Source of the DNA: Sphingomonas sp.
GTDB taxonomy: Bacteria > Pseudomonadota > Alphaproteobacteria > Sphingomonadales > Sphingomonadaceae
DNA: 34,323 nt
Direction of reading: 5' to 3'
Assembly (NCBI GenBank): GCA_025980335.1
Contig: JAICXO010000013.1
Span: 1-34,323, forward strand
The stretch's first letter is position 1; each line of letters begins with the position of its first letter. The notes under the pieces are model-generated. The model was given only the letters and a program-made list of their open reading frames with translations. It searched no databases and was not told where the DNA came from. Shown here piece by piece: positions 2,615 through 20,696 of this stretch. Both the position numbers and the translations under genes were made by a program.

Positions 2615-5600
2615 ATGACGACGACGCAACGGCGTATCGCTCTTCTCACGGGCGCCTCGCTCGCAACGCTGGTCACCGCGGTGCCGGCCTATGCTGCAAA
2701 CGTCACGGTGCCGGACATTCTGCATGTCGGGTTGATTGGCGCCCCTGATGTCACGGATACGTTGACGATCTGCCTCGCGACCGACAATTGCGTGGTCGGA
2801 GGGGAGTTCGGAACGTTCTCGTCGGCCACGCCGGTCGGGTTTGTCGGCGGCCATTTTCCGCCGGTGGTCGAGCAGAGCGCGACTGCGTCGGGTAACGCGA
2901 CGCTCAAGATCGAGAATCTGGGGACGGCATTCGTCGGCGCGACTGAAGTCCTCAACGCCACGGCAGGCGCGGCCCAGGGCACGGTGAACAACTTCACGTC
3001 GGGCGTGATTGCACAGCACGCGCAGGTCGCCGGCGCCGGCAAGCTCACGCTCAGCAACCAGGGCGCAATGAATGTCGGCCTGAACTTCGCGGCCAACGGC
3101 GTGGCGGGCGTCAACGAAGCAATGGCGATCGGCGGAATCGCGCAAACGGCGACGGGCGGCACGTCGGCGGCAATCGCCCTCACAAATTCGTCCCCACTCC
3201 ACGTTGCCGCGAACCTGACCGTCAACGCCGCCGCCGCCGGAACGGCAACGGCGACTCTCGATTTCGGGTTCCGCCAGCACGGCACAGCGACGGGCGCCGT
3301 CGATCTTGGCGTCAACAATAAGTCGACCCTCGCGGCGGTCGGCCACGCTGCCGCCTACGGCACGGTCGCGAACGCGAGCGGCAATCTCGGCACCGGGTTC
3401 GAGCAGACCGGCACCGGAACGGCCGTCAACGTCCACTTCACCAACGCGGCCGGCGCAACCGCCGATTTCAGGGCCTATTCGACGGCGACGGCAACGGTCG
3501 GCAACGCCGTTGCGAATGCCAGCGCGGACGGCGTCCACCAAATCGCCAATGGCACCAACGCCGCGACGGCATCATATGTGAACTACGGCACGCTCGACGT
3601 CGCGGCGACCGCGAACGCGCATTCTCCGGCGCTCGCGAGCGCGAACGCGCACGTCAGCTACGGCATCGACCAGACGGCGCACGTCACCGGCAACGGCGAC
3701 GCGACCGCGCGGGTTGATAACCGCGGGCTGATCGACATCACGGCGATCGCCAATGCCGGCGGCGTTGCCACTGCAACTTACGCGACGGCGATTGCGACGC
3801 CGGCGACGGCGGCCAATGCGAACGCCACTATCGGCAATGGAATCATCCAGCACGCGACCGTCGGCGGCAGCCACGGCAGCGCGGTCGCGGCGGTCACGAA
3901 CCACGCTGGTGACACGATCAACATCAATGCCTCCGCCAACGCGACAGCCTCCGGGCTCGTGCATGCGGTGGCGCAGGTCGGCACCGAAGGTGGCGCCGGG
4001 ATCAAGCAGGATGCTTCTGGGCCGAGCGCGCTCGCGAGCGTGAACAATGCAGGCACGATCAACGTCGGTGCAGCCGCCTACGCGGCGGGAACGCAGGCTG
4101 GCATGCAGACGTCGTCTGTAGCCTTCTCTCTCCCGGGATTCTTCACGGTGATCGACGTTTACCCGATCATGGGCGCGTCCGCGCATGTGAACGCCGGGAT
4201 CGTCCAGGATGCGAACGCAAGCGGCACCTACCAGACGATGGTCGCCGGCAAGCCCGTCATTGTCGTCGGCGATGCGAATGCGACACTGACGAACAGCGGC
4301 ACGCTCAACATTCATGCGACGGCGACTGCGAATGCCACCGCGAACGTCTACAACACGGGCCTTGCGCTCGCGTCGGCCGGAGTCGGCACGGGCGTGAACC
4401 AGCATGCTCATGCCGTGGGCGGGGACGCAACGGCTAGCCTCAACAACGGCGGAACGCTGAACATTACGGCGGCGGCCAATGCCGATGGCGGCATCGTTGC
4501 CGCGACATCGGGTGAGATCTTTGTCGAGTTCGGCTCGCCGTTCAACGACACCCATGCAGCTCCGGGGGCCCGTGCCTCCGTCCACGAGGGCATTCTACAG
4601 TCCGCTACCGCTAACCCGGTCGTGACCGGGACCGGCCTCAATGCAAGCGAGGGCGCCTACAACACGGGAGTGCAGTTCGGTAACGCGCTTGCTTCGCTGA
4701 CTAACGGCGGAACGATCAACATCAACGCGACCGCTCATGGAACAGCCTACGCGTCGGCGCTCGCGTCGGCGGAGGTCGGAGTCGGAATCGACCAGCACGC
4801 CGAAGCCGGAGCGATGGCGATGGGCACCGGCGACACGTCGACGGTGGTCGGTGGCAACGCGCGGGCATCGCTCGCGAACGCGGCGGGCGGGCTGATCAAC
4901 GTCGGCGCGACGGCCTATGCGTCGGGCCAGGTCAGTGGTCTTGCCGGCGCGCATGTGAGCTCGGGCGTCTTCCAGGCGGCGAGTGCGCACGCCGGCAATG
5001 CGTCCGTCGATCTCACGAATGACGGAACCATCGACATCCACGCCAACGCGAGCGGGACGGGGGCGAATGCCTACCATTCCGGGATCGGCGGCGCGGCAGC
5101 GTTCGTCGCGCACGGCATCGGTCAGTATGCGGACGGCCACGGCGGCAACGCCGCGGCAAGCCTCGCCAATGCCGGGACTCTCGACATCACCGCGACGGCG
5201 AATGCCAGCGGCGATTCGGCGCAGGTCACCGACTCCGGCGACCATTATCCGGGCGCCGAGGCGGGAGTCGGAACCGGGATCAACCAGGTCGCGACGGCTC
5301 ACCCGCTGGTGCTTGGCGTCGGTTCCACCGGGAGCGGCAACGAATATGTGACCGCGGCTCAGGCCGGGAACGCATCGGTGTCTCTGACCAACGCGGGCAC
5401 GATCGACATCCATGCCGGTGCGAACGCGAACGCTTATCACTCGGCGTCGGCTTCGGCCGGCATCGGCGCGGGCATTCACCAGCTTGCGCGTGCCGAAACG
5501 ATGACGGTCGGAACCGGCGTCTACACGTCGGTCGTGGGCGGTAACGCTACCGCATACATGACGAACGCTGCGGCCGGCGTGATCAACGTCAGCGCCGCGG

Positions 5601-8600
5601 CGAACGCAGTCGCCGGAAGCGCCGCCAATGCGAAGGCGAGCGTAACTTCGGGCGTCTTCCAGACGGCCTATGCCGGTGCCGGCAACTCGCTCGCGAGCCT
5701 GACCAACAACGGCGCAATCAACATCCGCGCCGGCGCTTACGCGACCGGCAGCAACGCGCACGCGGCTGCGGCGATCAACGGCGGAATCCGGCAGTTCGCC
5801 GGCACGATGACCGAAGGCGGCTTCAGCGAGGGTGGGATTAATGCGCTCGCGGTCCAGGCGACCGCGGGCGGGCCTTATTCGACGGCCGTGATCGTCAACA
5901 ACGGCACGATCAACGTCGACGCGACCGCAGTTGCGCACGCGACCGGGCCGCTCGGCGATAACGCGACGGCAACCGCCGTGGTCAACGGCGGCATCGTCCA
6001 GCACGCCAATGCCGTCGGCGGGAATGCACTGGTCAGCCTGACCGGCACCGGGACGATCGACATCGGCGCGATGGCCAGCGCGGTCGCCGACAGCGGCGTC
6101 GGCAAGGCCAATGCGACGGTCAACACTGCGCTCTCGCAGTCGGCGGTCGCGCATGGCGGAACCGCCTCCGCGATCCTGTCGCAGGCGGGTATCAACATCC
6201 ATGCGAACGCTTATGCGAGCGGCCTGACCGGCGCTTCCGCGCATGCCTCCGTCAACGGCGGCATCGGCCAATATGCGAGCGCCAGCGGGACGGGCAACCA
6301 GGTTGCCAACGTCTCGCTGACGAACGCCGGCGCGCTCAATGTCGTCGCTGCTGCGACGGCGATGGCTCCGGGCCTGACGGTCGTTTCGACCGGGAACGTC
6401 TCGAGCACCCACATCGCCACGCCGGCGGCGCACGCCACGGCCGGTGTCGCCAACGGCATCTGGCAGTCGGCTCACGCCAACCAGGTCACCGAAGGCACGG
6501 TGAAGGCCGGCAAGCCCGGCGCTTACGGCACGGTGACCTACAACTACACCTATGCCGGTGCTGCGGACGCGTCGGCGTCGCTGACCAACAGCGGTGCGAT
6601 CACGATCGGTGCAGACGCACTGGCGTCGGCCGCGTCCGCATTCGCCAATGCGGCGGTTGGGACCGGCATCTATCAGAATGCCCGGGCAACGGGCGGGACT
6701 GCTGCTTATGCGACCGCCGGGCTGTCGAACGGCGCGGCCGGGAGCATCATGGTCGGCGCGGTCGCGTCGGCTCACGGCTCCACGAATGCCGATGCCCACG
6801 CCCGCGTCGGGATGGGCATCGACCAGAACGCCGCCGCCCACATCGACTATGGCACCGCGGTGGCCAGTGCTGCGCTGACCAATGCCGGCGCGATCACCGT
6901 CGGGGCGAGCGCGGTTGCGACCGCGAGCGGGCCTGGCGTGCTCGGCAAGCCGGCAGCGGGCCCGGCGGATGCGTCGGCGCATGTCGGGACCGGCATTTCG
7001 CAGAACGCCTTCGCCAGCGGCCATGGGCTCGCTAGCGTGGTGGTCGGCCTGCGGACCGCGAAGGGCGATTACACGACGTTCGACACCTTCCAGGGTGCCG
7101 GTTCGGCCAGTGTTGCCCTGAACAACAGCGGATCGATCGCGGTCACCGCGAACGCTTCGGCGGCGGGCACGGATGCTTCCGCCACTGCCGACATCGATGA
7201 CGGCATCCGCCAGTTCGCCCACGGCTATGGGGCCAGTGCTGCCAATGCGGTCGCGATGATGACCAATGGCGCGTACGGCACGATGCAGGTGATGGCGAAC
7301 GCCGCGGCAACCGGATCGGATGTCAATGCGGTTGCGCGGGTCGGAACCGGCATCAGCCAGGTTGCGAGCGCAAATGCCACCACCGGGTCGGCAAACGCGG
7401 TTGCGAACATGACGAACGCCGGGGCGATCGCGATCGGTGCGGTCGCGAAGGCCACCGGAACGAGAGCAGACGCAACTGCGCAGGTCACCCGCCAGGCCAT
7501 CTACCAGCAGGCAACGGCAGCGGGCACGGCGGGGACGGCGACTGCCAACATCACCAACAGCGGCAACATCACGATCGACGCGAGCGCGGTTGCGAATGCG
7601 GCCACCGGGTCGGCGCAGGGTTATGCCTGGGTCCGCACCGGGCTGTGGCAGCGGGCGACCGGTGTCGACCACGCGGTCGCATCGATCAGCAACGCCGCCT
7701 ACGGGACGATCGCGATCGGCGCGAACGCCAACGCTTCGGGTCAAAGCGGCGGCTTCGCCGACGCGACCATCGGCGTCGGCCTCGCCCAGAACGCGAACGC
7801 GCACACCGACCAGGTCGGCAGCTACGCGACCGGTTCGATCACCAACAACGGTGCAATCTCGATCGCCGCGAGCGCGAATGCGTTCGGCGGTCGCGAAGGC
7901 GACGCCCAGGCTGGCGCGTTCGTCAGCAACCCGGTGATCCAGACCGCTCACGCCTACAGCAGCGCCGCGGTCAACCTGACCAACAACGGCACGCTCAACA
8001 TCCTCGCCGCGGCGAACGCGTCGGGCGATGAGGGTGCAAGTGCGACTGCGCGCCTCGGTGCTACCACCGAGGGCGGTCTCCGCGCGGTGATCTTCCAGTC
8101 GGCCGGAGCGCGGGGCGACAAGGGCAATGCATCGGTCGGGTTCACCAACACCGGCACGATCGACATTGCCGCCATGGCCAATGCGGTCGGCGGCGAAGAC
8201 GTGTTCGCGAGCGCGCTCGCCTATCACGGCATCGATCAGCGGGCGTTCGGCGGGGCCAGCGGCACGGCCAACGTGACCTTCACCAACGAAGGTCCGCTGA
8301 CGGTCAGCGCCTATGCGAGCGCGCTTGGCGGCGGCGAGGGCACGGCTCTCGCTCATGCGAGCGGCATCCATCAGGTCGCGGCTGCCGGCTCCGGCGCGAT
8401 GGCGAACGTGTACAACACGAACGCGATTGCGGTGTCGGCCACGGCGAACGTCACGGTCGGGAACGCGGCGCACCGCGGCTCCTATGCCCTGGCAAGCGCA
8501 AGCGCGAGCGGCATCAGCCAGAGCGTGTCGGCCGGGCTTCCGACCTCGCACGTCGGGCATGTCACCTATGCAACGCTGACCGCGGCCTACAAGACCTCGT

Positions 8601-11600
8601 CGACGCACAAGGAAGGCTTTGCCCAGGTCAACACCAGCTCGGAGTTCGCTCCGAGCGGACCGGTGGTCGCTACCCTGACCAACACGGGCTCGCTGACGGT
8701 CAACGCCAACGCCAATGCGGTTGGCGAACCGGGAGGCCTCGCCTACGCCGGCGCAACCGCGGTCAACCAGCACGTGTTCGGAAGCAGCGCGGCGGCAACA
8801 GTGATCAACTACGGGACCATTGCGGCGCACGCTTCGGCTGTCGCATCGGCGCTCAACGGTGCTTCTGCCACGGCCGGCGCGGTCGGCATCCGTCAGGATG
8901 TCGTCGCCGGCGGGACGCAGAATACGGTCACCAACCGCGGGCAGGTAACGCTCCACGCTACGGCTTATGGAACGACGATCCAGGCGATGGGTCCGACGAC
9001 CTACGTCACCTCGACGATGACGACGGCGCCGGTTGGACCGGCGACCGCCTTCGTCAGCAACGCGGGTGTGATCGACGTCGCCGCCCACGCCAGCGCGGTC
9101 AACGCCAACGGTGGCCCGGCGATCGGTGCGACCAACACGACTCCTGCCTTCGCCCAGGCTTACGGCCTTGGCGTCGCGCAGAACGCCGCAGGCACGTCGG
9201 TAGCACTGACTGCCAACAACAGCGGCACGATCGACGTAGCGGCCTATGCGACGGCGACCGGCGGCACGGCGGCGTTCGCGTCGGCCGGTGCGCAGGGCAT
9301 CGTGCAGGAGGGCATTGCCGACACGCTCCGGCTGGTAACGCACTCGTCGTTGCAGGCGAGCACGAGGGGCAATGGTCATGTGACCACGGTCATGCTCCCG
9401 GCCAGCTCTTCGGCGACCTACACTGCCGAAGGTCCGGTTAGCGAGACGGTGACCAACACGGGCACCATCAGCGCCCATGCGGCCGCGAATGCGAATGCCG
9501 GCAGCTCTGCAACCGCTGTCGCTTTCGCGACCGGCGTCGTGCAGGCCATCGGCACGACCGGGATGAACGGCGCGACGTCCGCAAGCATGCATGTCGACAA
9601 CGCCGGCCTGATCTCGGCGGCGGCCAACGCCGCAGCCTACGGCACCGCAGCATTCGCCAGCGCGAGTGCGAACGGCGTCCTGCAGCTCGCGAACGCAACC
9701 TCTGCCAACCTCAGCATCGTGAACTACAACACGGTGGCTGCAACCGCGAACGCCCACGCCTACGGCACCGGCTTCGCGAGTGCGACGGCGAACGCCGTCG
9801 GGCTCAAGCAGCTCGCGATGGGGACGGCAGGCCTCTCCGGCGGATCGGCGGTGATCACCAACTACGGCACGATCAACGTCGGCGCGCATGCAAATGCGAC
9901 CGGTGGAAGCGCGGCCAATGCCTACGCGAAGGCGGTTGGCGTCTGGCAGGGTGCGGGAACGCTCCCGCTGACCTTCGACAACGAGGGCGTCGTCAACGTC
10001 AACGCCGCGGCGGTTGCCGCGGGGACGACAGGCTACGCTTCCGCGACGGCGATCGGCTACTTCGGATCGGCCGCTGGCGGCGGGTACGAGACTGCGGCGG
10101 TCGTCAACGCCGGCACGATGAACGTCAGCGCCACGGCGGTCGCTCCGGTGACCGCACATGCGCTGGCCCAGGGCATCGAGGTCAGCAACGCGGCGGTCGG
10201 CGGGGTCGGCCAGCGACTCAACGGCTCGATCACGAACAGCGGCACGCTGAACGTGATGGCGTCGGCGAGCGGCGGCGCGAACAGCTACGCGACGGCGACG
10301 GGCATCGGGGTCGACGGTGGCGTCAACAACATGACGATCACCAACTCGGGCGCGATCAACGTCGACGCGATCACGGCCAATGGCGGCAGCGCGAATGCCT
10401 ACGGCATCCGCGTCGGTACCAACGGCACCGTGACGGCGGGGGCGACGGATGTCGTCACGATCAACAATTCGGGTGACATCATCGCCCGGATCTCGACCGA
10501 TGGCGGCACCACGTTCCAGCGCGGCACGGCGATCGACGTCAGCGGCGCTCCGAACCGGTCGGTCATCAACCTGATGGCCGCGGCGGACACGCCGGCGAAC
10601 ATCTACGGCAATATCGAGCTGCGCAGCGACGCGGACGTGATCAACGTCACGACCGGCGAGACGCTGTTCAACGGCGTGATCAACTCCGGCTGCATGCCTG
10701 CCGGCGGTCCGACCGCGCTGACGCTCGACAATGCGGCGCAGAACGACTGCGGCGTGGGTACGCTCAACATCAACAGCGGAGGCAATCTCCACCTGTTGAA
10801 CGTTGCTGCGGACGGTCCGTCCTATGTGTTCATGAACACGCTCAACATGGGTGCTGACGGCACGATCACCTTCGACCTGCCGGCGCCGGTGGGCGGCGGC
10901 GCGAACGAGCCGATCGGGACCTACCCGCAGATGTTCGTGGATACGGCCAACCTCGACGGCACGATCGTCGCGAACATCGCGGCGCCGGCCAACGGGCTGT
11001 GGGATACGACCACCTACCAGAACGTGATCGATGCCACGACGCGCAACGGCCAGTTCGCAACCTGCACGATCAACGGCCTGCCCGCGGGCTCGCTGCTGAT
11101 CAGCGCCGGGTGCATCTACGACAACGCCGCCAACGTCGACATCGGCATCACTCGGGCGCCGTTCGAAAGCGTTACGGGCCTCAACGGCAACGGCACTGCC
11201 GTCGCCACGGGCCTCGACAGCTACTTCAACGTCAATCTGACGGGCGGGGCTGCGACGATGTTCGCCGACCTGTTCACGATCAGCAACGCGGCGAACTACA
11301 ACACCGCGCTGAACATGCTGTCGGGATCGGTCTATGCGAACTACCTGAACTCGTTCCCGAGCCTGGGTGTTCACGAGAACGACCTGACCGACCACGCGAC
11401 GAACTGCGAGATCCCGGCGCTTGCCGGATCGGTACTCGAGTGCCGTGCGTCCTCGCCGATCCACATCTGGGGTCAGGTCGACTACCAGACGCGGAAGGCG
11501 GACGGCGACATCGAAGCCGGATCGACCAGGTCGAAGCGGTTCACCGGCCTGCTCGGGGTGGATGCGAACGTCGGCAACGCAGCGATCGTCGGTGTGGATG

Positions 11601-12436
11601 CGGGCTATCTGACCAACCACGTCCGCGACCACCAGTTCGGCGACGACGCGAACGGCGACGGCTGGACCGCCGGTGCCTACGCGGTCTACGATCCGGGCGC
11701 GTTCTACCTGAAGGGTGTGACGACCTACAGCTCGCTCAACGGCAAGTCGGACCGTCACATCAACTTCGGCGGGCTCGCAACCGGCGCGACCTTCCTGGCC
11801 AACCCGAACGGCAGCCCGGACGTCACGATGTGGACCGGCGGTCTGCATGGCGGAGCCCGGTTCCCGATCAGCGCCACGTCGGTCCTGACTCCGTACCTGA
11901 ACCTCGACTATGTCCATGCGAAGCTGAAGGGCTTCGACGAGGACAACGGGAACGGTGCGGGCCTGACCATCGCCAGCTCCAACTCCAACCACACCTACCT
12001 GACGGGCGGCGTGAAGTGGGCGACGCAAATGGGTGGCGTGGTTCCGGAGATCAACCTCGGCTACCGCTACCGCTTCGGCGACACGCGCAGCTCGGTCCAC
12101 GAGTGGTTCACGCCGGACCCGGAGAACGATTTCGACATCGTCTCGGCGGCCCAGAAGCGCGGAACCTTCCTTGCGGGCGTCAGCGTCGGCGGGAAGCTTG
12201 GTCCGGTCGACGTGAGGATCGGCTACGAGGGCGAGTTCAACGGCAGCGTCACCAGCCACAGCGGCAACTTCAAGTTCGTCCTGCCGCTAGGCGGCCATGC
12301 GGCTCCGCCGCCTCCGCCGCCGCCGCCTCCCCCGCCGCCTCCTCCGCCGCAGGTGGAACAGCCGGCTCCGCCGCCTCCGCCTCCGCCTCCCCCGCCGCCT
12401 CCGGCGCCGGTCGAGCGCGGCGAGCGCGGCCAGTAA
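2615..12436 (+). CDS. Giant repetitive autotransporter-like adhesin (3273 aa): signal peptide, repeat solenoid, C-terminal beta-barrel, polyproline tail
   Basis: Continuous ORF. N-terminal signal MTTTQRRIALLTGASLATLVTAVPAYAA; about 40 degenerate repeats with NxGxIxI and GIxQ motifs; C-terminal region WGQVDYQTRKADG...GVDAGYLTNHV...AYAVYDPGAFYLKGVTTYSS...LTPYLNLDYVHAK...INLGYRYRFGD...VDVRIGYEGEFNGSVTSHSGNFKFVLPL is like an autotransporter beta-domain. Confidence 0.92.
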   Translation: MTTTQRRIALLTGASLATLVTAVPAYAANVTVPDILHVGLIGAPDVTDTLTICLATDNCVVGGEFGTFSSATPVGFVGGHFPPVVEQSATASGNATLKIENLGTAFVGATEVLNATAGAAQGTVNNFTSGVIAQHAQVAGAGKLTLSNQGAMNVGLNFAANGVAGVNEAMAIGGIAQTATGGTSAAIALTNSSPLHVAANLTVNAAAAGTATATLDFGFRQHGTATGAVDLGVNNKSTLAAVGHAAAYGTVANASGNLGTGFEQTGTGTAVNVHFTNAAGATADFRAYSTATATVGNAVANASADGVHQIANGTNAATASYVNYGTLDVAATANAHSPALASANAHVSYGIDQTAHVTGNGDATARVDNRGLIDITAIANAGGVATATYATAIATPATAANANATIGNGIIQHATVGGSHGSAVAAVTNHAGDTININASANATASGLVHAVAQVGTEGGAGIKQDASGPSALASVNNAGTINVGAAAYAAGTQAGMQTSSVAFSLPGFFTVIDVYPIMGASAHVNAGIVQDANASGTYQTMVAGKPVIVVGDANATLTNSGTLNIHATATANATANVYNTGLALASAGVGTGVNQHAHAVGGDATASLNNGGTLNITAAANADGGIVAATSGEIFVEFGSPFNDTHAAPGARASVHEGILQSATANPVVTGTGLNASEGAYNTGVQFGNALASLTNGGTININATAHGTAYASALASAEVGVGIDQHAEAGAMAMGTGDTSTVVGGNARASLANAAGGLINVGATAYASGQVSGLAGAHVSSGVFQAASAHAGNASVDLTNDGTIDIHANASGTGANAYHSGIGGAAAFVAHGIGQYADGHGGNAAASLANAGTLDITATANASGDSAQVTDSGDHYPGAEAGVGTGINQVATAHPLVLGVGSTGSGNEYVTAAQAGNASVSLTNAGTIDIHAGANANAYHSASASAGIGAGIHQLARAETMTVGTGVYTSVVGGNATAYMTNAAAGVINVSAAANAVAGSAANAKASVTSGVFQTAYAGAGNSLASLTNNGAINIRAGAYATGSNAHAAAAINGGIRQFAGTMTEGGFSEGGINALAVQATAGGPYSTAVIVNNGTINVDATAVAHATGPLGDNATATAVVNGGIVQHANAVGGNALVSLTGTGTIDIGAMASAVADSGVGKANATVNTALSQSAVAHGGTASAILSQAGINIHANAYASGLTGASAHASVNGGIGQYASASGTGNQVANVSLTNAGALNVVAAATAMAPGLTVVSTGNVSSTHIATPAAHATAGVANGIWQSAHANQVTEGTVKAGKPGAYGTVTYNYTYAGAADASASLTNSGAITIGADALASAASAFANAAVGTGIYQNARATGGTAAYATAGLSNGAAGSIMVGAVASAHGSTNADAHARVGMGIDQNAAAHIDYGTAVASAALTNAGAITVGASAVATASGPGVLGKPAAGPADASAHVGTGISQNAFASGHGLASVVVGLRTAKGDYTTFDTFQGAGSASVALNNSGSIAVTANASAAGTDASATADIDDGIRQFAHGYGASAANAVAMMTNGAYGTMQVMANAAATGSDVNAVARVGTGISQVASANATTGSANAVANMTNAGAIAIGAVAKATGTRADATAQVTRQAIYQQATAAGTAGTATANITNSGNITIDASAVANAATGSAQGYAWVRTGLWQRATGVDHAVASISNAAYGTIAIGANANASGQSGGFADATIGVGLAQNANAHTDQVGSYATGSITNNGAISIAASANAFGGREGDAQAGAFVSNPVIQTAHAYSSAAVNLTNNGTLNILAAANASGDEGASATARLGATTEGGLRAVIFQSAGARGDKGNASVGFTNTGTIDIAAMANAVGGEDVFASALAYHGIDQRAFGGASGTANVTFTNEGPLTVSAYASALGGGEGTALAHASGIHQVAAAGSGAMANVYNTNAIAVSATANVTVGNAAHRGSYALASASASGISQSVSAGLPTSHVGHVTYATLTAAYKTSSTHKEGFAQVNTSSEFAPSGPVVATLTNTGSLTVNANANAVGEPGGLAYAGATAVNQHVFGSSAAATVINYGTIAAHASAVASALNGASATAGAVGIRQDVVAGGTQNTVTNRGQVTLHATAYGTTIQAMGPTTYVTSTMTTAPVGPATAFVSNAGVIDVAAHASAVNANGGPAIGATNTTPAFAQAYGLGVAQNAAGTSVALTANNSGTIDVAAYATATGGTAAFASAGAQGIVQEGIADTLRLVTHSSLQASTRGNGHVTTVMLPASSSATYTAEGPVSETVTNTGTISAHAAANANAGSSATAVAFATGVVQAIGTTGMNGATSASMHVDNAGLISAAANAAAYGTAAFASASANGVLQLANATSANLSIVNYNTVAATANAHAYGTGFASATANAVGLKQLAMGTAGLSGGSAVITNYGTINVGAHANATGGSAANAYAKAVGVWQGAGTLPLTFDNEGVVNVNAAAVAAGTTGYASATAIGYFGSAAGGGYETAAVVNAGTMNVSATAVAPVTAHALAQGIEVSNAAVGGVGQRLNGSITNSGTLNVMASASGGANSYATATGIGVDGGVNNMTITNSGAINVDAITANGGSANAYGIRVGTNGTVTAGATDVVTINNSGDIIARISTDGGTTFQRGTAIDVSGAPNRSVINLMAAADTPANIYGNIELRSDADVINVTTGETLFNGVINSGCMPAGGPTALTLDNAAQNDCGVGTLNINSGGNLHLLNVAADGPSYVFMNTLNMGADGTITFDLPAPVGGGANEPIGTYPQMFVDTANLDGTIVANIAAPANGLWDTTTYQNVIDATTRNGQFATCTINGLPAGSLLISAGCIYDNAANVDIGITRAPFESVTGLNGNGTAVATGLDSYFNVNLTGGAATMFADLFTISNAANYNTALNMLSGSVYANYLNSFPSLGVHENDLTDHATNCEIPALAGSVLECRASSPIHIWGQVDYQTRKADGDIEAGSTRSKRFTGLLGVDANVGNAAIVGVDAGYLTNHVRDHQFGDDANGDGWTAGAYAVYDPGAFYLKGVTTYSSLNGKSDRHINFGGLATGATFLANPNGSPDVTMWTGGLHGGARFPISATSVLTPYLNLDYVHAKLKGFDEDNGNGAGLTIASSNSNHTYLTGGVKWATQMGGVVPEINLGYRYRFGDTRSSVHEWFTPDPENDFDIVSAAQKRGTFLAGVSVGGKLGPVDVRIGYEGEFNGSVTSHSGNFKFVLPLGGHAAPPPPPPPPPPPPPPPQVEQPAPPPPPPPPPPPPAPVERGERGQ
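2855..10600 (+). repeat. Protein-level degenerate repeat array (about 40+ units, roughly 45-70 aa each) encoded in the giant gene
   Basis: Recurring pattern 'A-x-L-T-N-x-G-x-I-[ND]-[IV]-x-A-x-A-x-A...A-x-[VI]-x-x-G-I-x-Q-x-A-x-A-x-G' (e.g. GIDQTAHVTG, GVNQHAHAVG, GIHQLARAET, GIYQNARATG, GISQVASANA). Hand count gives about 42 GxxQ-type motifs. Boundaries approximate. Confidence 0.85.
12302..12411 (+). repeat. CCG/CCT-rich tract encoding two polyproline runs at the C-terminus of the giant protein
   Basis: Encodes APPPPPPPPPPPPPPPQVEQPAPPPPPPPPPPPPAP; DNA is imperfect (ccgcct)n-like tandem repeat. Confidence 0.95.
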
Positions 12437-12606: not shown

Positions 12607-14928
12607 ATGAGCAACAGCAAGACCAGCACCGCGGCCAAGCCCGCAAGCAAATCCCCTGCGCCCGCCGCGACGGCCCGTCCGAATCAACCGCAAGGCGGAG
12701 CCGCAGGCCAGCGCCCGCAGCATGTCCGCCGAGGGCCGAGCAGTATCGACGAGACGATCACCAAGGCCCAGCACGGACGGGTGAACGTGACGCCCGCGAA
12801 GGCGATCGAGATGGCCGGGCAGCTCTATTCGCGGCGCCAGTTCGGCCAGGCGGAACGCGTCTGCCGGCAGATCATCGCAGCGCGGCCGGGCAACGCGGAC
12901 GCGCACAACATCCTCGGCGTTTCGCTGGCGGCGCTCGGCAATTCGAAGGAAGCCGTCGCCGAGCTCAGGCGCGCGATCAAGATCAACGCCCAGGCGCCGA
13001 GCTATCAGGCGAACCTCGGCGAGATCCTGCGCCAAAACGGCAAGCTCGACGAAGCGGCCGAGGTCCTCGAAGCTGCCGTCAAGCTCGACCCGAACAATGC
13101 GCAGGTGCTGAACAACCTCGGCATCATCGCCTATGAACGGCGCAATTTCGCCCAGGCGGTCGACTATTACCGGCGGGCGCTGGCGCTCAACCCGAACATG
13201 GCCGAGGCGCTCAACAACCTCGGCAATGCGCTGCGCATGACCGGCGATATCGACGGCGCGATGCATGCCTACCAGGAAGCGCTGACCCAACGGGCGGTGT
13301 ACCCGGAGGTTTACAACAATCTCGGCACGTTGCTCCAGCAGGACCGCAAGCTCGAGGAGGCCGAGCACGCGCTGCGCAAGGCGATCCAGCAGAACGCGCG
13401 CTATGTCGAGGCGCACACGAACCTCGCGACGCTGCTGTTCGCGCAGCAGAACGAGGTCGAAGCGCTGCGAATCCTCGGCGAAGCGCTGAAGTTCGCACCG
13501 AGCAGCGTGCCGACGCTGCTGCTGACCGCGAAGATCCAGCTCAAGCGCAACAATCTCCAGGCGGCCGAGCAGGCAGCCCGGCTGGCGCTGAAGGAAGAGC
13601 CCGAGAGCACGGAGGCTCTGACGCTTCTCGGGCAGGTGCTGCACGAGACCGATCGCTACGACGAGGCGATCGACGTGCTCGACCGCGCGCTTCAGAAGTC
13701 TCCGGAGAACCCGGAAGCCCTGAACTTCTACGGGGTCGCGCTGAAGTCCGTCGGCCGGCTCGACGACGCGCGCGAATACATTCTCAAGGCGCTCCGGCTC
13801 AACGACGGGATGTACGGCGCCTATGCGAACCTCAACGACCTGGTCGATTTTTCGGAAGGGATCGGCGAGGAGCTGTTCAACCGCATGGAAGCGATCTTCG
13901 AATCCGTGCCGAACAAGGAAGCGGACCCGTTCCTCGCGCTTCATTTCGCTTACGCGAAGGCGCTCGATGATCGCGGCCAGCACGAGAAGGCGCTCGAGCA
14001 TTACATCATCGGCGGCCGGATGAAGCGCGCGCAGCTCGATTATAAGGAAGACGAGACGCACGGCTTCTTCGACGCGATCCGCGACGCCTTCCCCAAGGAA
14101 GCGTTCGAGAACCGCAAGTACGAAGGCCTCGACGACGATCGTCCGGTGTTCATCGTCGGAATGCCCCGCTCGGGCTCGACGCTGGTCGAGCAGATCCTGT
14201 CGAGCCACCCCGACGTCTATGGCGCGGGCGAAGTGAAATATCTCGCGCGGGCGCTCGGCCAGCTCCGCGACCGCTTCCCGTCGCTGCCCAAATATCCGGA
14301 CATGATGGCGAAGATCACCCCGGCGCAGCTCGGGATCACCGCGAAGAACTACCAGCAGGCGCTGAGCCAGGGCGCGGGCGACGCCAAGCGCATCACCGAC
14401 AAGCTGCTGACCAATTACTTCTTCCTCGGGCTGATCAACCTGCTGTTCCCGAAGGCGAAGGTGATCCACACGCAGCGCGATCCGGTCGACACCTGCCTTT
14501 CCGGCTTCACCAAGCTGTTCAAGGACGACATGCCGCACAGCTACGATCTCGCCGAGCTCGGCCGCTATTACGGCAAGTATCGCGAGCTGATGGAGCATTG
14601 GGAGAAGGTGCTGCCCGAAGGGTTCATGACGACGGTCGTCTATGAGGACGTGGTTGCCGACACCGAGAAGGAGGCGAGGCGCCTGATCGAGTTCCTGGGG
14701 CTTCCATGGAACGAGAAGTGCGTCGACTTCCACAAGTCCGACCGGCCGGTGAAGACCGCAAGCGTCGCCCAGGTGCGCAAGCCGATCTACAAGACCTCGG
14801 TCCAACGCTGGAAGAAGTACGGCGCCGGGCTGCAGCCGCTCGTCGACGCCGTCGGCGGCAAGTCGGCTGAAAAGCAGCCTCCGAAGCCGAAGGGCAAGGC
14901 AAAGACGAAGGTCAAGGAAAACGCCTGA
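12607..14928 (+). CDS. TPR-repeat-containing sulfotransferase family protein
   Basis: 773 aa; N-terminal series of TPRs (e.g. [61 protein letters not shown]) followed by sulfotransferase domain with 5'-PSB motif [33 protein letters not shown] and later [16 protein letters not shown] (3'-PB-like). Confidence 0.95.
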
Positions 14929-14998: not shown

Positions 14999-15898
14999 GT
15001 GCGCGCACTCACGCATCTCGACCGGCTCGAGGCCGAAAGCATTCACATCCTTCGCGAGACCGTCGCGGAGGCGGACAAGCCCGTGATGCTCTATTCGATC
15101 GGCAAGGATTCGGCCGTGATGCTGCACCTTGCGAAGAAGGCCTTCTATCCAAGCCCGCTGCCGTTCCCGCTGCTCCACGTCGATACGACGTGGAAGTTCA
15201 GGGCGATGTACGCGCTTCGCGACAAGGTCGCGGCCGAGCCCGGAATCGAGCTGATCGTCCACAAGAACCCCGAGGCGGTGAGCCAGGGCATCAATCCGTT
15301 CGACCATGGGCCGGTCCACACCGACATGTGGAAGACCCAGGGCCTCAAGCAGGCGCTCGACAAGTACGGCTTCGATGCGGCGTTCGGCGGTGCACGGCGG
15401 GACGAAGAGAAGAGCCGCGCGAAGGAGCGGGTGTTCAGCTTCCGCGACCGCAACCACCGCTGGGACCCCAAGCGCCAGCGGCCCGAGCTGTGGGACCTTT
15501 ACAACGTCAAGAAGAACAAGGGCGAGAGCATGCGCGTCTTCCCCTTGTCCAACTGGACCGAGCTCGACGTCTGGCAATATATCATGCGCGAGGGCATCGA
15601 GATCGTGCCGCTCTATTTCGCCGCCGATCGGCCGACGGTGACGCGCGATGGGCTGATCCTGATGGTCGACGACGATCGCTATCCGCTGAACGGCGAGACG
15701 CCGGTCATCCGCAAGGTGCGGTTCCGTACGCTCGGCTGCTATCCGCTCTCGGGCGCGGTCGAGAGCGACGCGGAGACGGTCGAGGAAATCGTTGCCGAGA
15801 TGCTGCTGACCAAGACGAGCGAGCGGCAGGGCCGCGCGATCGACAAGGACGCCGGAAGCGCGTCGATGGAGAAGAAGAAGCAGGAGGGGTATTTCTAA
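14999..15898 (+). CDS. cysD: Sulfate adenylyltransferase subunit 2
   Basis: GTG start; [46 protein letters not shown]...[14 protein letters not shown]...[18 protein letters not shown]...[11 protein letters not shown]; canonical CysD. Confidence 0.98.
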
Positions 15899-17821
15899 GT
15901 GTCCCGCCCGCTCGAATCCGAAGAAGACCTCATCCGCCACGATGTGCGCACCTGGCTCGCGCAGCAGGAGGCGAAGGAGCTGCTGCGGTTCATCACCTGC
16001 GGCAGCGTCGACGACGGCAAGTCGACCCTGATCGGGCGGCTGCTCTACGAATCGAAGCAGATCTTCGACGACCAGCTCGACGCGCTCGAAAGCGACAGCA
16101 AGCGCCATGGGACGCAGGGGCAGAAGATCGACTTCGCCTTGCTCGTGGACGGGCTCTCGGCCGAGCGCGAGCAGGGCATCACGATCGACGTCGCCTATCG
16201 CTTCTTCACCAGCGCACGGCGCAAGTTCATCGTCGCCGATACGCCGGGGCACGAGCAATATACGCGCAACATGGTGACCGGCGCGTCGACGGCGGGCCTC
16301 GCGGTGCTTCTGGTCGATGCGCGCAAGGGCGTGCTGACCCAGACCCGGCGCCACTCCTACCTCGCGAAGCTGGTCGGAATCCGCCGGTTCGTGCTCGCGG
16401 TGAACAAGATGGACCTGGTCGATTACGATCAGGCGGCGTTCGACGCGATCTGCGCCGATTATCGCGCGTTCGCCGAGCAGACCGGGATCGAGGACTGGGT
16501 CGCGATCCCCGTCTCGGGGCTCAACGGCGACAATATCATGAGCCGGAGCGAGGCGACGGCTTGGTACGGCGGCCCGACGCTGCTCGAACATCTCGACACG
16601 GTACCGCTCGACGCCGCCGCCGACGCGCAGAAGCCGATGCGCATGCCGGTGCAGTGGGTCAACCGCCCGAACCAGAATTTCCGCGGGTTCTCCGGGCAGA
16701 TCGCGTCGGGGTCAATGGGACCGGGCGCCGAGGTGCGGGTCCTCCCCTCGGGACGGACGACGCGCATCGATCGTGTGGTGACCATGGACGGCGACCTCGA
16801 CGAAGCGGCGGCGGGGCAATCGGTGACGGTGACCTTCGCCGACGAAATCGACTGCTCGCGCGGCGACGTGATCGCTGCTGCGGGCGACCCGCCCGAGGCT
16901 GCCGACCAGTTCGAAGCGACGATCGTGTGGATGGCGGACGAGGAGCTGCTGCCCGGCCGCGGCTACTGGATGAAGCTCGGGACCCAGATGGTCACGGCGA
17001 TGGTCCAAGAGCCCAAATACGAGATCAACGTCAATACGCTCGAGCATCTCGCGGCCAAGACGCTGAGCCTCAATGGGATCGGCGTTGCCGAAATCTCGAC
17101 GGACCGCGAGATCGTGTTCGAACCCTATGCGGTCGAGGGTTCGAGCCCGAACAAGGCGCTCGGCGGGTTCATCCTGATCGACAAGCTGACCAATGCGACC
17201 GTCGGCTGCGGGATGATCCATTTCGCGCTGCGCCGGGCGCTCAACATCCATCGCCAGCACCTCGACGTCGGACGCGAGACGCACGCCGCGGTGAAGGGCC
17301 AGAAGCCCGCGGTGTTGTGGTTCACTGGCCTTTCGGGCGCGGGCAAGTCGACCATCGCCAACCTCGTCGAAAAGAAGCTCGCCGCGCGCGGGCGGCACAC
17401 CTTCCTGCTCGACGGCGACAACATCCGTCACGGCCTCAACCGCGACCTCGGCTTCACCGAGGCGGACCGGATCGAGAATATCCGCCGCGTCGGCGAGGTC
17501 GCGCGGCTGATGGCAGACGCCGGCCTGATCGTGCTCACTGCCTTCATCTCTCCGTTCCGCGCCGAGCGGCACATGGTGCGGCGGATGATCCCCGACGGCG
17601 AGTTCTTCGAGATCTTCGTCGATACGCCGCTCGCCGACGCCGAGAAGCGCGACGTCAAGGGTCTCTACGCCAAGGCGCGCGCCGGCGAGCTCAAGAATTT
17701 CACCGGGATCGACAGCCCGTACGAACCGCCCGAGCATGCCGAAATCCATATCGACACGACCAGCCTTGGCCCCGACGAGGCCGCGGACCTGATCGTCGAG
17801 AAGCTCCTCGGCCGGCGCTGA
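15899..17821 (+). CDS. cysNC: Bifunctional sulfate adenylyltransferase subunit 1 / adenylylsulfate kinase
   Basis: GTPase motifs [43 protein letters not shown]-terminal APS kinase [21 protein letters not shown]...[15 protein letters not shown]. Starts at the base after the cysD stop. Confidence 0.98.
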
Positions 17822-18797: not shown

Positions 18798-19754
18798 TTA
18801 TCGAGCGGCGGCGACAGCCACGGGAGCGCTTGGCCGCTCACCGTCCTCGTTGCGGATTTCGAACATGTCGCGCGCCCATTGCCGCATTCGCGGCGGCGCT
18901 CCGCTCCACTCCCACAGCCCGTCCGACCCGATGCGGATATGCGCGTCGGGGTTGAAGCCGAAAGTCATGAACTGCTGGTTCATCATCGCGTAGCGGCGGT
19001 CTCCGAGATCGCCGTGCCACAGGTGAAGAATCCGCCCGGGAACGACGCCTAGCTTTCCCCCGACGAAGTCTCTCGCTTTGACTGCCCAACGCACGAAATG
19101 CTGCCTGTAGGCCGGCGATGGTCCGAGCATGTGGGGGATGCACGGCGACTTCGCGACTGCCGCGGCAAACGCGTGGGCCATCAAATGATCGCCGCTGCCG
19201 GTCAGGCACGCATCGTAAAAGCCGCATTCGTTCACGAACTCGCGGCGCGCCGCCCAGGCGAAGCCGGTGTGGCCGTGAGCGTTGAACAATTTGGTCCGCG
19301 CGAGGCTCGGGTCGCGCACGAACAGCGAGGCAAAGGATTCGTAGAGGAGGCCGCTGCCGTCATCCTCGTTCCCGCGGTTCAGCCGCACCGCGTGGCTGAA
19401 CGGCTGAACCACGACCGAATGCTCGAGTGCCTCGGACGTGCGTTCGAGCCAGTCCGGCTCCTTGAAGATCAAATCGGCGTCGAACCATCCGACTTTCGTG
19501 CAGGATTCCGGCAAGCGGCCGACGGCAACGTTGAGCAGCCGCTCCTTCTGCCACATGACGTCGGTCCCCCTGAACTGGAGGACATGCTCGCCGGGATCGA
19601 GCTCGAAATCGTCGTCTCCGAACGCCAGCTCGACCACCCGCACGTCCGCGCCGACCTTCGCCATTCCCTCGATGAACGCGTCGAAGTTCCGCCGCTTCGT
19701 CTTGTAACGGGCAGGGTTGAAGTAGGACGTGATGATGCAGAAGTCGGAACTCAC
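18798..19754 (-). CDS. Glycosyltransferase-like protein, paralog A
   Basis: 318 aa MSSDFCIITSYFNPARYKTKRRNFDAF...VMWQKERLLNVAVGRLPESCTKVGWFDADLIFKEPDWLERT...TGSGDHLMAHAF; DAD motif; very similar to 26156-27133. Confidence 0.75.
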   Translation of the reverse strand: MSSDFCIITSYFNPARYKTKRRNFDAFIEGMAKVGADVRVVELAFGDDDFELDPGEHVLQFRGTDVMWQKERLLNVAVGRLPESCTKVGWFDADLIFKEPDWLERTSEALEHSVVVQPFSHAVRLNRGNEDDGSGLLYESFASLFVRDPSLARTKLFNAHGHTGFAWAARREFVNECGFYDACLTGSGDHLMAHAFAAAVAKSPCIPHMLGPSPAYRQHFVRWAVKARDFVGGKLGVVPGRILHLWHGDLGDRRYAMMNQQFMTFGFNPDAHIRIGSDGLWEWSGAPPRMRQWARDMFEIRNEDGERPSAPVAVAAAR

Positions 19755-19919
19755 TTTATCTCTCGTTCGGTGCGTTCGGGGAAGCCGGCACAGTGGCGGC
19801 GCCGCTCACTATGTCAAGCGGAAGCGCCGTCCAAACAGGCGCTTAGCGCTCCCCCGCCAGATGCCGAGCCGGCCGATACGGGTGTGCAACCAAATGTTGC
19901 AACATCGGTTTCCGCAAGG

Positions 19920-20696
19920 ATGAAGCATCTGCTGATCGCCGTGGCTGCCGTGCTGCCCGCCTGGAGCGCTGCCGCCGCTCAGGACAGCAACGACATTCGT
20001 GTCCGGGTCGGGCTGGGTGCGCAGTTGCAGCCTCAGTACATCGGTGCGGACGGGACGAGCGTGGCGCCGCTGTTCCATATCAACACTGCACGCGGCACAA
20101 ACGAATTCAGGTTCGCGGCGCCGGACGACAGCTTCGGCATCGGCGTGGCGTCGACAGGCGGATTCTCGTTCGGACCGGCCGGCAACATCGAAGGACGGCG
20201 CAAACAGTCCGATGTCGGTGCGCCGGTCGGGAATGTTGCGAGGACCTTCGAGGCAGGCGCATTCGCCCAGTATGAAGTGGCCGATTCCTTTCGATTTCGG
20301 GCGGAGCTCCTGAAGGGTATCGGCGGCAATGGGGGACTCGTCGGCACGATCAGCGCGGACAAGATCTGGCGAAGCGGTGACCGGTATGTCTTTTCGATCG
20401 GCCCGCGCGTGATGTTTTCCGATGCGCGCTACCAGCGTGCGTACTTCGGCATCACGCCCGCGGCATCGCTCGCATCCGGGCTGCCGGTCTACCGCCCCGG
20501 CGGCGGCATCCACGCCGTCGCACTCGCAAGCGGCATCTCGTACGAGCTCAGCAGCCGTTGGGGCCTGTTCGGCTTCGCGCGCTACGAGCGCCTGGTCGGA
20601 GACGCCGCCAGGTCCCCGATCGTTCGAGACTTCGGCTCACGCAATCAGCTGTCGGGCGGCATCGGGCTCGACTACACGTTCACCATCGGGCGGTAA
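19920..20696 (+). CDS. MipA/OmpV family outer membrane protein
   Basis: From ATG 19920: signal MKHLLIAVAAVLPAWSAAAAQ; DIRVRVGLGAQLQPQYIGADGTSVAPLFHI...; ends GGIGLDYTFTIGR with beta-barrel character. The longer listed ORF start (19098) is antisense to the neighbouring gene. Confidence 0.82.
   Translation: MKHLLIAVAAVLPAWSAAAAQDSNDIRVRVGLGAQLQPQYIGADGTSVAPLFHINTARGTNEFRFAAPDDSFGIGVASTGGFSFGPAGNIEGRRKQSDVGAPVGNVARTFEAGAFAQYEVADSFRFRAELLKGIGGNGGLVGTISADKIWRSGDRYVFSIGPRVMFSDARYQRAYFGITPAASLASGLPVYRPGGGIHAVALASGISYELSSRWGLFGFARYERLVGDAARSPIVRDFGSRNQLSGGIGLDYTFTIGR

Follow-up and report, generated by a model that had tools for sequence, protein, structure and literature searches.

A giant Sphingomonas autotransporter with an alanine-packed repeat passenger and an adjoining sulfotransferase that may modify it

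On a 34,323-nucleotide stretch of Sphingomonas sp. DNA (assembly GCA_025980335.1, contig JAICXO010000013.1; the whole stretch is called the window here), a giant repeat protein is encoded directly ahead of a predicted sulfotransferase and of genes for making 3'-phosphoadenosine 5'-phosphosulfate (PAPS), which raises the question of what this protein is and whether the enzyme acts on it. We find that the protein is a classical type Va autotransporter, and we put at roughly 0.6 the probability that it becomes a sulfated surface fibre by type Va secretion, its passenger being modified by the neighbouring tetratricopeptide repeat (TPR)-sulfotransferase.

The gene is one uninterrupted open reading frame (ORF) without a stop, and its product is classed as an autotransporter because the last ~650 residues form a translocator. 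Its parts, with structural statements from AlphaFold2 (AF2) and repeat units from a hidden Markov model (HMM), are as follows.

2615..12436, + strand: giant type Va autotransporter of 3273 residues, single open frame
2615..2695, + strand: putative Sec-type signal peptide MTTTQRRIALLTGASLATLVTAVPAYA, of typical sequence, read by eye from the translation
~2894, + strand: weak partial solenoid unit ahead of the array, from the unit HMM
3038..10438, + strand: array of ~46-48 units of a predicted Ala-packed solenoid, ~42 core residues each, from the unit HMM and shuffles
7103..7966, + strand: six compact consecutive units (residues 1497-1784), the structure-prediction input; AF2 predicted local distance difference test (pLDDT) 97.1, predicted template modelling score (pTM) 0.92, all-beta
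10451..11155, + strand: non-repetitive beta-rich stretch between units and translocator, in an autochaperone-like position; AF2 model of residues 2440-3215, pLDDT 90.5
11186..11401, + strand: helical linker into the barrel, helices 419-490 of the same model
11465..12205, + strand: autotransporter beta-domain PF03797, E 3.4e-42 and 1.2e-40, fold match to EstA, NalP and EspP
12305..12433, + strand: poly-proline periplasmic tail ending in PVERGERGQ, from the translation

The AF2 model of residues 2440-3215 comprises the last units, the beta-rich stretch, the helical linker and the barrel, and its best solved matches in Foldseek are EstA, AaaA, NalP and EspP; EstA (E 1e-12) and NalP (TMt 0.84) both matched at probability 1.00. 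Both hallmarks of type Va proteins, a helical linker ahead of the barrel and a solenoid passenger, are present in the AF2 models, and the order of putative signal peptide, long predicted beta-solenoid passenger, helical linker and PF03797 barrel is that of pertactin, Ag43, AIDA-I and EspP. The same protein start as in the putative signal peptide is kept in a related genome (G033). A whole-protein hmmscan that returned no family, even for the barrel, was set aside as a filter effect: composition filters blind such scans to the barrel, and slices of the protein recovered PF03797. An antisense open frame at 4595-12259 (- strand; 2554 residues, no family match) most likely just mirrors the codon bias of the repeats.

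The array itself is not a by-product of composition. With an HMM derived from the protein, 47 units score above 10 bits when composition is left uncorrected and 38 when it is corrected for, whereas 50 shuffled copies of the same residues give almost none (a mean of 0.02 units above 5 bits with correction, the best at 6.7 bits). Upon rebuilding the HMM with relatives, we obtained 46 units above 10 bits over residues ~142-2608 (window ~3038-10438), and the protein contains 39 exact G[IVLF]xQ motifs. The initial annotation had placed about 40 units at 2855-10600; the array is real and the coordinates were about right, but the count was slightly low, the HMM giving about 46-48.

A family profile of 332 units, taken from the window protein and related proteins, reads A1xA3xL5TN7xG9xI11xV13xA15xA17xA19xG21 in its first half and, after a loop, A25xA27xA29xV31xxG34I35xQ37xA39xA41 in its second, again followed by a loop. 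All 39 near-complete units have the Gln (100%), 97% have the Asn of TN and 87% the following Gly, while Q37 stands at ~95% in relatives and N7 at 97-98% over the 332 units. Insertions occur almost exclusively at the loops and directly after the Asn; because inserts of up to ~23 residues can lengthen the two loops of an aligned unit, unit spacing is variable, with 35-150 residues between GIxQ motifs. There is no Cys in residues 81-2650, and Ala (23.6%) follows a strict alternation, occupying 51% of inward-phase versus 9% of outward-phase positions; for charged residues the corresponding shares are 0.3% and 9%. Odd unit positions are small or hydrophobic (0.2% charged), the even ones are polar, with 16% charged residues and 35% Ser/Thr, and Tyr within units faces outward (4.3% outward versus 0.1% inward). 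The initial annotation was thus borne out in describing mostly Cys-free units, an extreme Ala-x-Ala alternation and a nearly invariant Gln in GIxQ once per unit.

As it had also proposed, the repeat does not belong to a recognised family. The units matched no family in Pfam or NCBIfam and no PDB sequence, passenger slices reached no Pfam family over the curated cut-off (PATR, pertactin, haemagglutinin and curlin included), and 30 six-unit segments had no consistent Pfam match. In these respects the window protein departs from pertactin, Ag43, AIDA-I and EspP: its passenger lacks a Pfam family and has 46-48 units, whose ~42 core residues comprise Ala-x-Ala strands and an invariant Gln pointing inward, and its barrel is followed by a poly-Pro/ERG tail (in other genera, by an OmpA domain).

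For structure prediction, the six compact units were supplied to AF2 together with 29 homologous, non-overlapping six-unit segments. All five models reached pLDDT 91-97 and the predicted fold was all-beta, with strands where the profile predicts them, so that the beta-solenoid suggested by the initial annotation was matched by an ordered, solenoid-like fold and not by disorder. Foldseek found no solved structure for this model in the PDB at E<=0.001, the TM-scores listed being at most ~0.2, and nothing significant among viral models; the search itself works, as seen from the probability of 1.00 for the barrel fragment. It is known that AF2 gives confident but wrong or unrealistic solenoids for near-perfect and many random perfect repeats (PMC11795689), and one could suppose that the repeat region does not fold as predicted and that the model is an artefact of repetitive sequence. 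We regard this as very improbable. The units are diverged, the alignment rows being only ~30-56% identical to the query, and for four diverged natural repeat families the methods agreed (PMC11795689); moreover, the inward positions are nearly charge-free, the insertions sit at predicted turns, and the protein is a type V passenger, where solenoids are the rule. Divergence, a charge-free interior and insertions at turns are the reasons for which we think the fold class right.

Residue covariation bears on how the units would stack. Between positions 3 and 39, side-chain volume shows an anticorrelation, with r -0.24 in the same unit and r -0.34 with the next unit, beyond all 500 within-protein permutations; this is what one would expect if strand 1 lay opposite the end of strand 3, with a thin core between them. 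From one unit to the next, several inward positions carry similar residues and several outward ones avoid such likeness, ladder effects that are expected for direct stacking of units. An arrangement of two coils per unit (S1+S2, then S3) is disfavoured by both effects; they point towards a single coil in each unit, although the majority of the other facing pairs predicted are silent. Each unit would probably form one wide coil of three strands, with the Asn of TN and the Gln of GIxQ stacked inside once per coil. The Gln ladder of the initial annotation fits the sequence phase and would be internal, as Q37 shares the inward face with I35, A39 and A41, although the ladder itself is read from sequence. 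If a unit were one 4.8-Angstrom coil, ~48 units would make a fibre very roughly 20-25 nm long. Within the libraries searched, the units thus appear to represent an undescribed, Ala-packed kind of beta-solenoid.

Stacked Asn and Gln residues could also drive lateral or end-to-end aggregation, making the passenger a functional amyloid-like or self-associating fibre comparable to curli, Fap or Ag43. Both residues are nearly invariant and occur once per unit, and FapC stands second in the Foldseek list, but not significantly, the E values being >0.04. No curlin or other Pfam family matches, E. coli K-12 Ag43 scores <1 bit per unit with the unit HMM, which is no match, and the sequence phase puts Asn and Gln inside rather than at the surface; we therefore hold an amyloid-like fibre to be improbable.

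What, then, is the role of the genes that follow? Three lie downstream of the autotransporter on the same strand.

12607..14928, + strand: TPR + Sulfotransfer_3 protein, 773 residues, no evident signal peptide; from Pfam, solved TPST relatives and the conserved neighbour
14999..15898, + strand: CysD, sulfate adenylyltransferase small subunit, NCBIfam E 6.8e-157
15899..17821, + strand: CysNC, sulfate adenylyltransferase subunit 1 / adenylylsulfate kinase, which makes PAPS, NCBIfam PRK05506, 1026 bits

The sulfotransferase domain (PF13469, E 1.2e-45) has protein-tyrosine sulfotransferases as its nearest solved structures, namely 8w5z (E 4.7e-11), followed by TPST1 and TPST2. The PAPS-site motif PRSG[ST]TL and the active-site Glu and Lys motifs are kept in all orthologs; we take the roles of this Glu and Lys to be those in TPST2. 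Like animal TPST1/2, the enzyme thus combines the sequence match (E 5e-11) with the PAPS motif and with Glu and Lys at the catalytic positions, but the animal enzymes are Golgi-resident and without a TPR arm.

The two genes lie together beyond the window as well. Autotransporter and TPR-sulfotransferase are consecutive on one strand in eight genomes (G000, G033, G014, G025, G002, G137, G063 and G489), two of them from another genus (G137, G063) and one from another alphaproteobacterial family (G489), and CysD-CysNC comes next in four of the eight (G000, G033, G014, G002). In two further genomes (G318, G204) the sulfotransferase-CysD-CysNC block begins ~300 nucleotides from a contig end, and contig ends truncate the autotransporters, which is what breaks of the assembly within the repeats would produce. 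Among 61 relatives, sulfotransferase orthologs of at least 60% identity occur only in G000, G033, G014, G025, G002 and G055, all six of which carry the solenoid. Over 299 genomes of the order, a close ortholog was found in 10 of 13 solenoid carriers versus 1 of 286 non-carriers (Fisher p 2e-15, uncorrected for relatedness or shared ancestry). As a control, we inspected 19 paralogous sulfotransferase loci, where only the sister group in G054 adjoins an autotransporter, so that the association is a property of this enzyme clade.

In that G054 locus (L120, 1683-11692), the sister sulfotransferase lies divergently beside a 2530-residue autotransporter with a different, NxGTI solenoid. The G055 genome has 16 matches to the sulfotransferase domain, and one of its contigs (C91; L136, 619-7818) holds four tandem TPR-sulfotransferase genes. 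A MipA-family outer membrane protein is encoded at window 19098-20696 (+ strand); because a homolog also follows CysNC in G033 and G318, the conserved neighbourhood may extend further.

The PAPS genes speak for sulfation in a more general way. PF01507, applied to seven solenoid genomes of the genus, matched CysD and no CysH-type PAPS reductase, leaving PAPS without an assimilatory outlet of the CysH type, and many genomes of the genus likewise keep CysD and show no such reductase. This suggests that PAPS in the genus serves sulfation instead of sulfur assimilation. We rejected CysD/CysNC as a trait specific to the solenoid, CysD being found across the genus, and the missing reductase accordingly backs a use of PAPS in sulfation generally, not in this operon alone.

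These data must be set against the reading that the protein is a long autotransporter adhesin of the ordinary kind whose passenger is an undescribed solenoid, and that the sulfotransferase, CysD and CysNC make a sulfated exopolysaccharide or lipid and are merely adjacent. Further downstream one finds genes for a GT2-type glycosyltransferase and a 4,6-dehydratase/epimerase-like protein, many members of the genus have CysD, and sulfotransferase paralogs are common without autotransporters, all of which would fit. However, it is this ortholog, and not the paralogs, that tracks the solenoid across genera, it stands directly behind the solenoid gene in eight genomes including one of a different family, and its nearest solved relatives act on protein tyrosine. 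We consider mere adjacency unlikely, but a serious alternative.

Several observations weigh against a passenger sulfated by its neighbour. Three genomes (G064, G251, G262) have the solenoid without a close sulfotransferase, and a fourth (G243) has both at separate places. The Tyr content of units varies between 0 and 4% without following the presence of the enzyme; for this reason we rejected enrichment of outward Tyr as proof of sulfation. Genomes of the genus commonly have CysD and no CysH, so that the PAPS genes are not particular to the solenoid, and the downstream glycosyltransferase gene makes a glycan substrate possible. The bias of AF2 towards solenoids (PMC11795689) leaves the unit fold likely. 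Passenger sulfation is something we infer, if strongly, from genomes.

If the passenger is sulfated, the events may run as follows. The protein would cross the inner membrane by Sec, its PF03797 barrel would insert in the outer membrane with the helical linker leading in, and the ~48 repeats would fold outside the cell as a long, thin, Ala-packed beta-solenoid fibre. CysD and CysNC would supply PAPS to the TPR-sulfotransferase, which would, most likely in the cytosol and ahead of Sec export, sulfate the still-unfolded passenger, with the TPR part as a substrate-binding arm. The target could be Tyr or the abundant outward Ser/Thr; Tyr, which lies almost solely on outward positions, is our best guess from homology. 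What results would be a sulfated fibre carrying negative charge at the cell surface, with a role in adhesion, aggregation or hydration.

Binding by the TPR-sulfotransferase and sulfation before export are proposed by analogy with TibC, HMW1C and FlmG. TibC-type BAHT heptosyltransferases are dedicated modifiers of the type V adhesins TibA/AIDA-I (PMC4358343), and HMW1C is the dedicated modifying enzyme of HMW1 (PMC3012730). The proposed system would share with them a dedicated enzyme, a type V-secreted adhesin and action before export, but its enzyme is a predicted sulfotransferase, unrelated in sequence and accompanied by PAPS-making genes. Caulobacter FlmG, with an N-terminal TPR and a glycosyltransferase, modifies flagellins in the cytoplasm (PMC7591256); it resembles the window enzyme in having an N-terminal TPR arm on a cytoplasmic modifying domain, in an alphaproteobacterium and with a surface fibre protein as substrate (proposed in our case), and differs in that its C-terminal domain is a GT-B glycosyltransferase where ours is a TPST-like sulfotransferase. 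As with RaxST-RaxX of Xanthomonas oryzae, a tyrosine-sulfotransferase-like gene lies beside an exported substrate (again proposed here), yet RaxX is a 60-residue peptide precursor (PMC6637879) and our candidate an autotransporter of 3273 residues.

The repeat is rare and mainly sphingomonad. The unit profile occurs in 13 of 299 genomes of the order and in 5 of the 385 sampled across the class (two of these five belong to other orders), and was not found outside the family in a phylum-wide sample. The nearest named relatives are Sphingomonas, with related loci in Sphingomonas segetis YJ09 and Sphingomonas cremea G124. Contigs were scanned for related barrels with a four-barrel alignment. The window protein closes with its poly-proline, ERGERGQ end and without an OmpA domain; in G014 (copy a) and G025 the barrel is the last part of the protein. 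In other sphingomonad genera (L073, L074, L078, L079, L080, L081) an OmpA peptidoglycan-binding domain (PF00691) stands behind the barrel, and these OmpA-fused autotransporters are possibly cell-wall-anchored. The same proline tail (ERG or ERGERGQ/R) closes four more proteins of the window genome (L085, L086, L087, L088), judged from their sequences to be two long TonB-type-receptor-like ORFs, a porin-like barrel and a lipoprotein-like protein; the tail may be a shared periplasmic anchor or sorting tail in the genus. At G006:C1:618935-620990 (barrel part in L007), a short passenger-less barrel with a proline/ERG tail lies directly upstream of CysD, as if the operon had eroded at this locus.

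Sulfation of protein tyrosines, familiar from animals and plants, has few bacterial cases (RaxX). Among the papers listed by a search pairing sulfotransferase and autotransporter, none described a sulfotransferase dedicated to an autotransporter. Somewhat short of even odds, and hence tentatively, we would go further and see here a dedicated protein-sulfation system for a bacterial fibre, combining a TPR-guided, TPST-like enzyme, its own PAPS supply and a new class of Ala-packed solenoid in which every unit makes one ~42-residue coil around buried Asn and Gln ladders. If this holds, type V adhesins would be modified in the cytosol by sulfation as well as by glycosylation, and gene neighbours would allow the substrates of the many bacterial TPR-sulfotransferases to be tested. 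The repeat, for its part, is a clearly delimited candidate for a new class of solenoid, and hundreds of its natural units are there to be studied.

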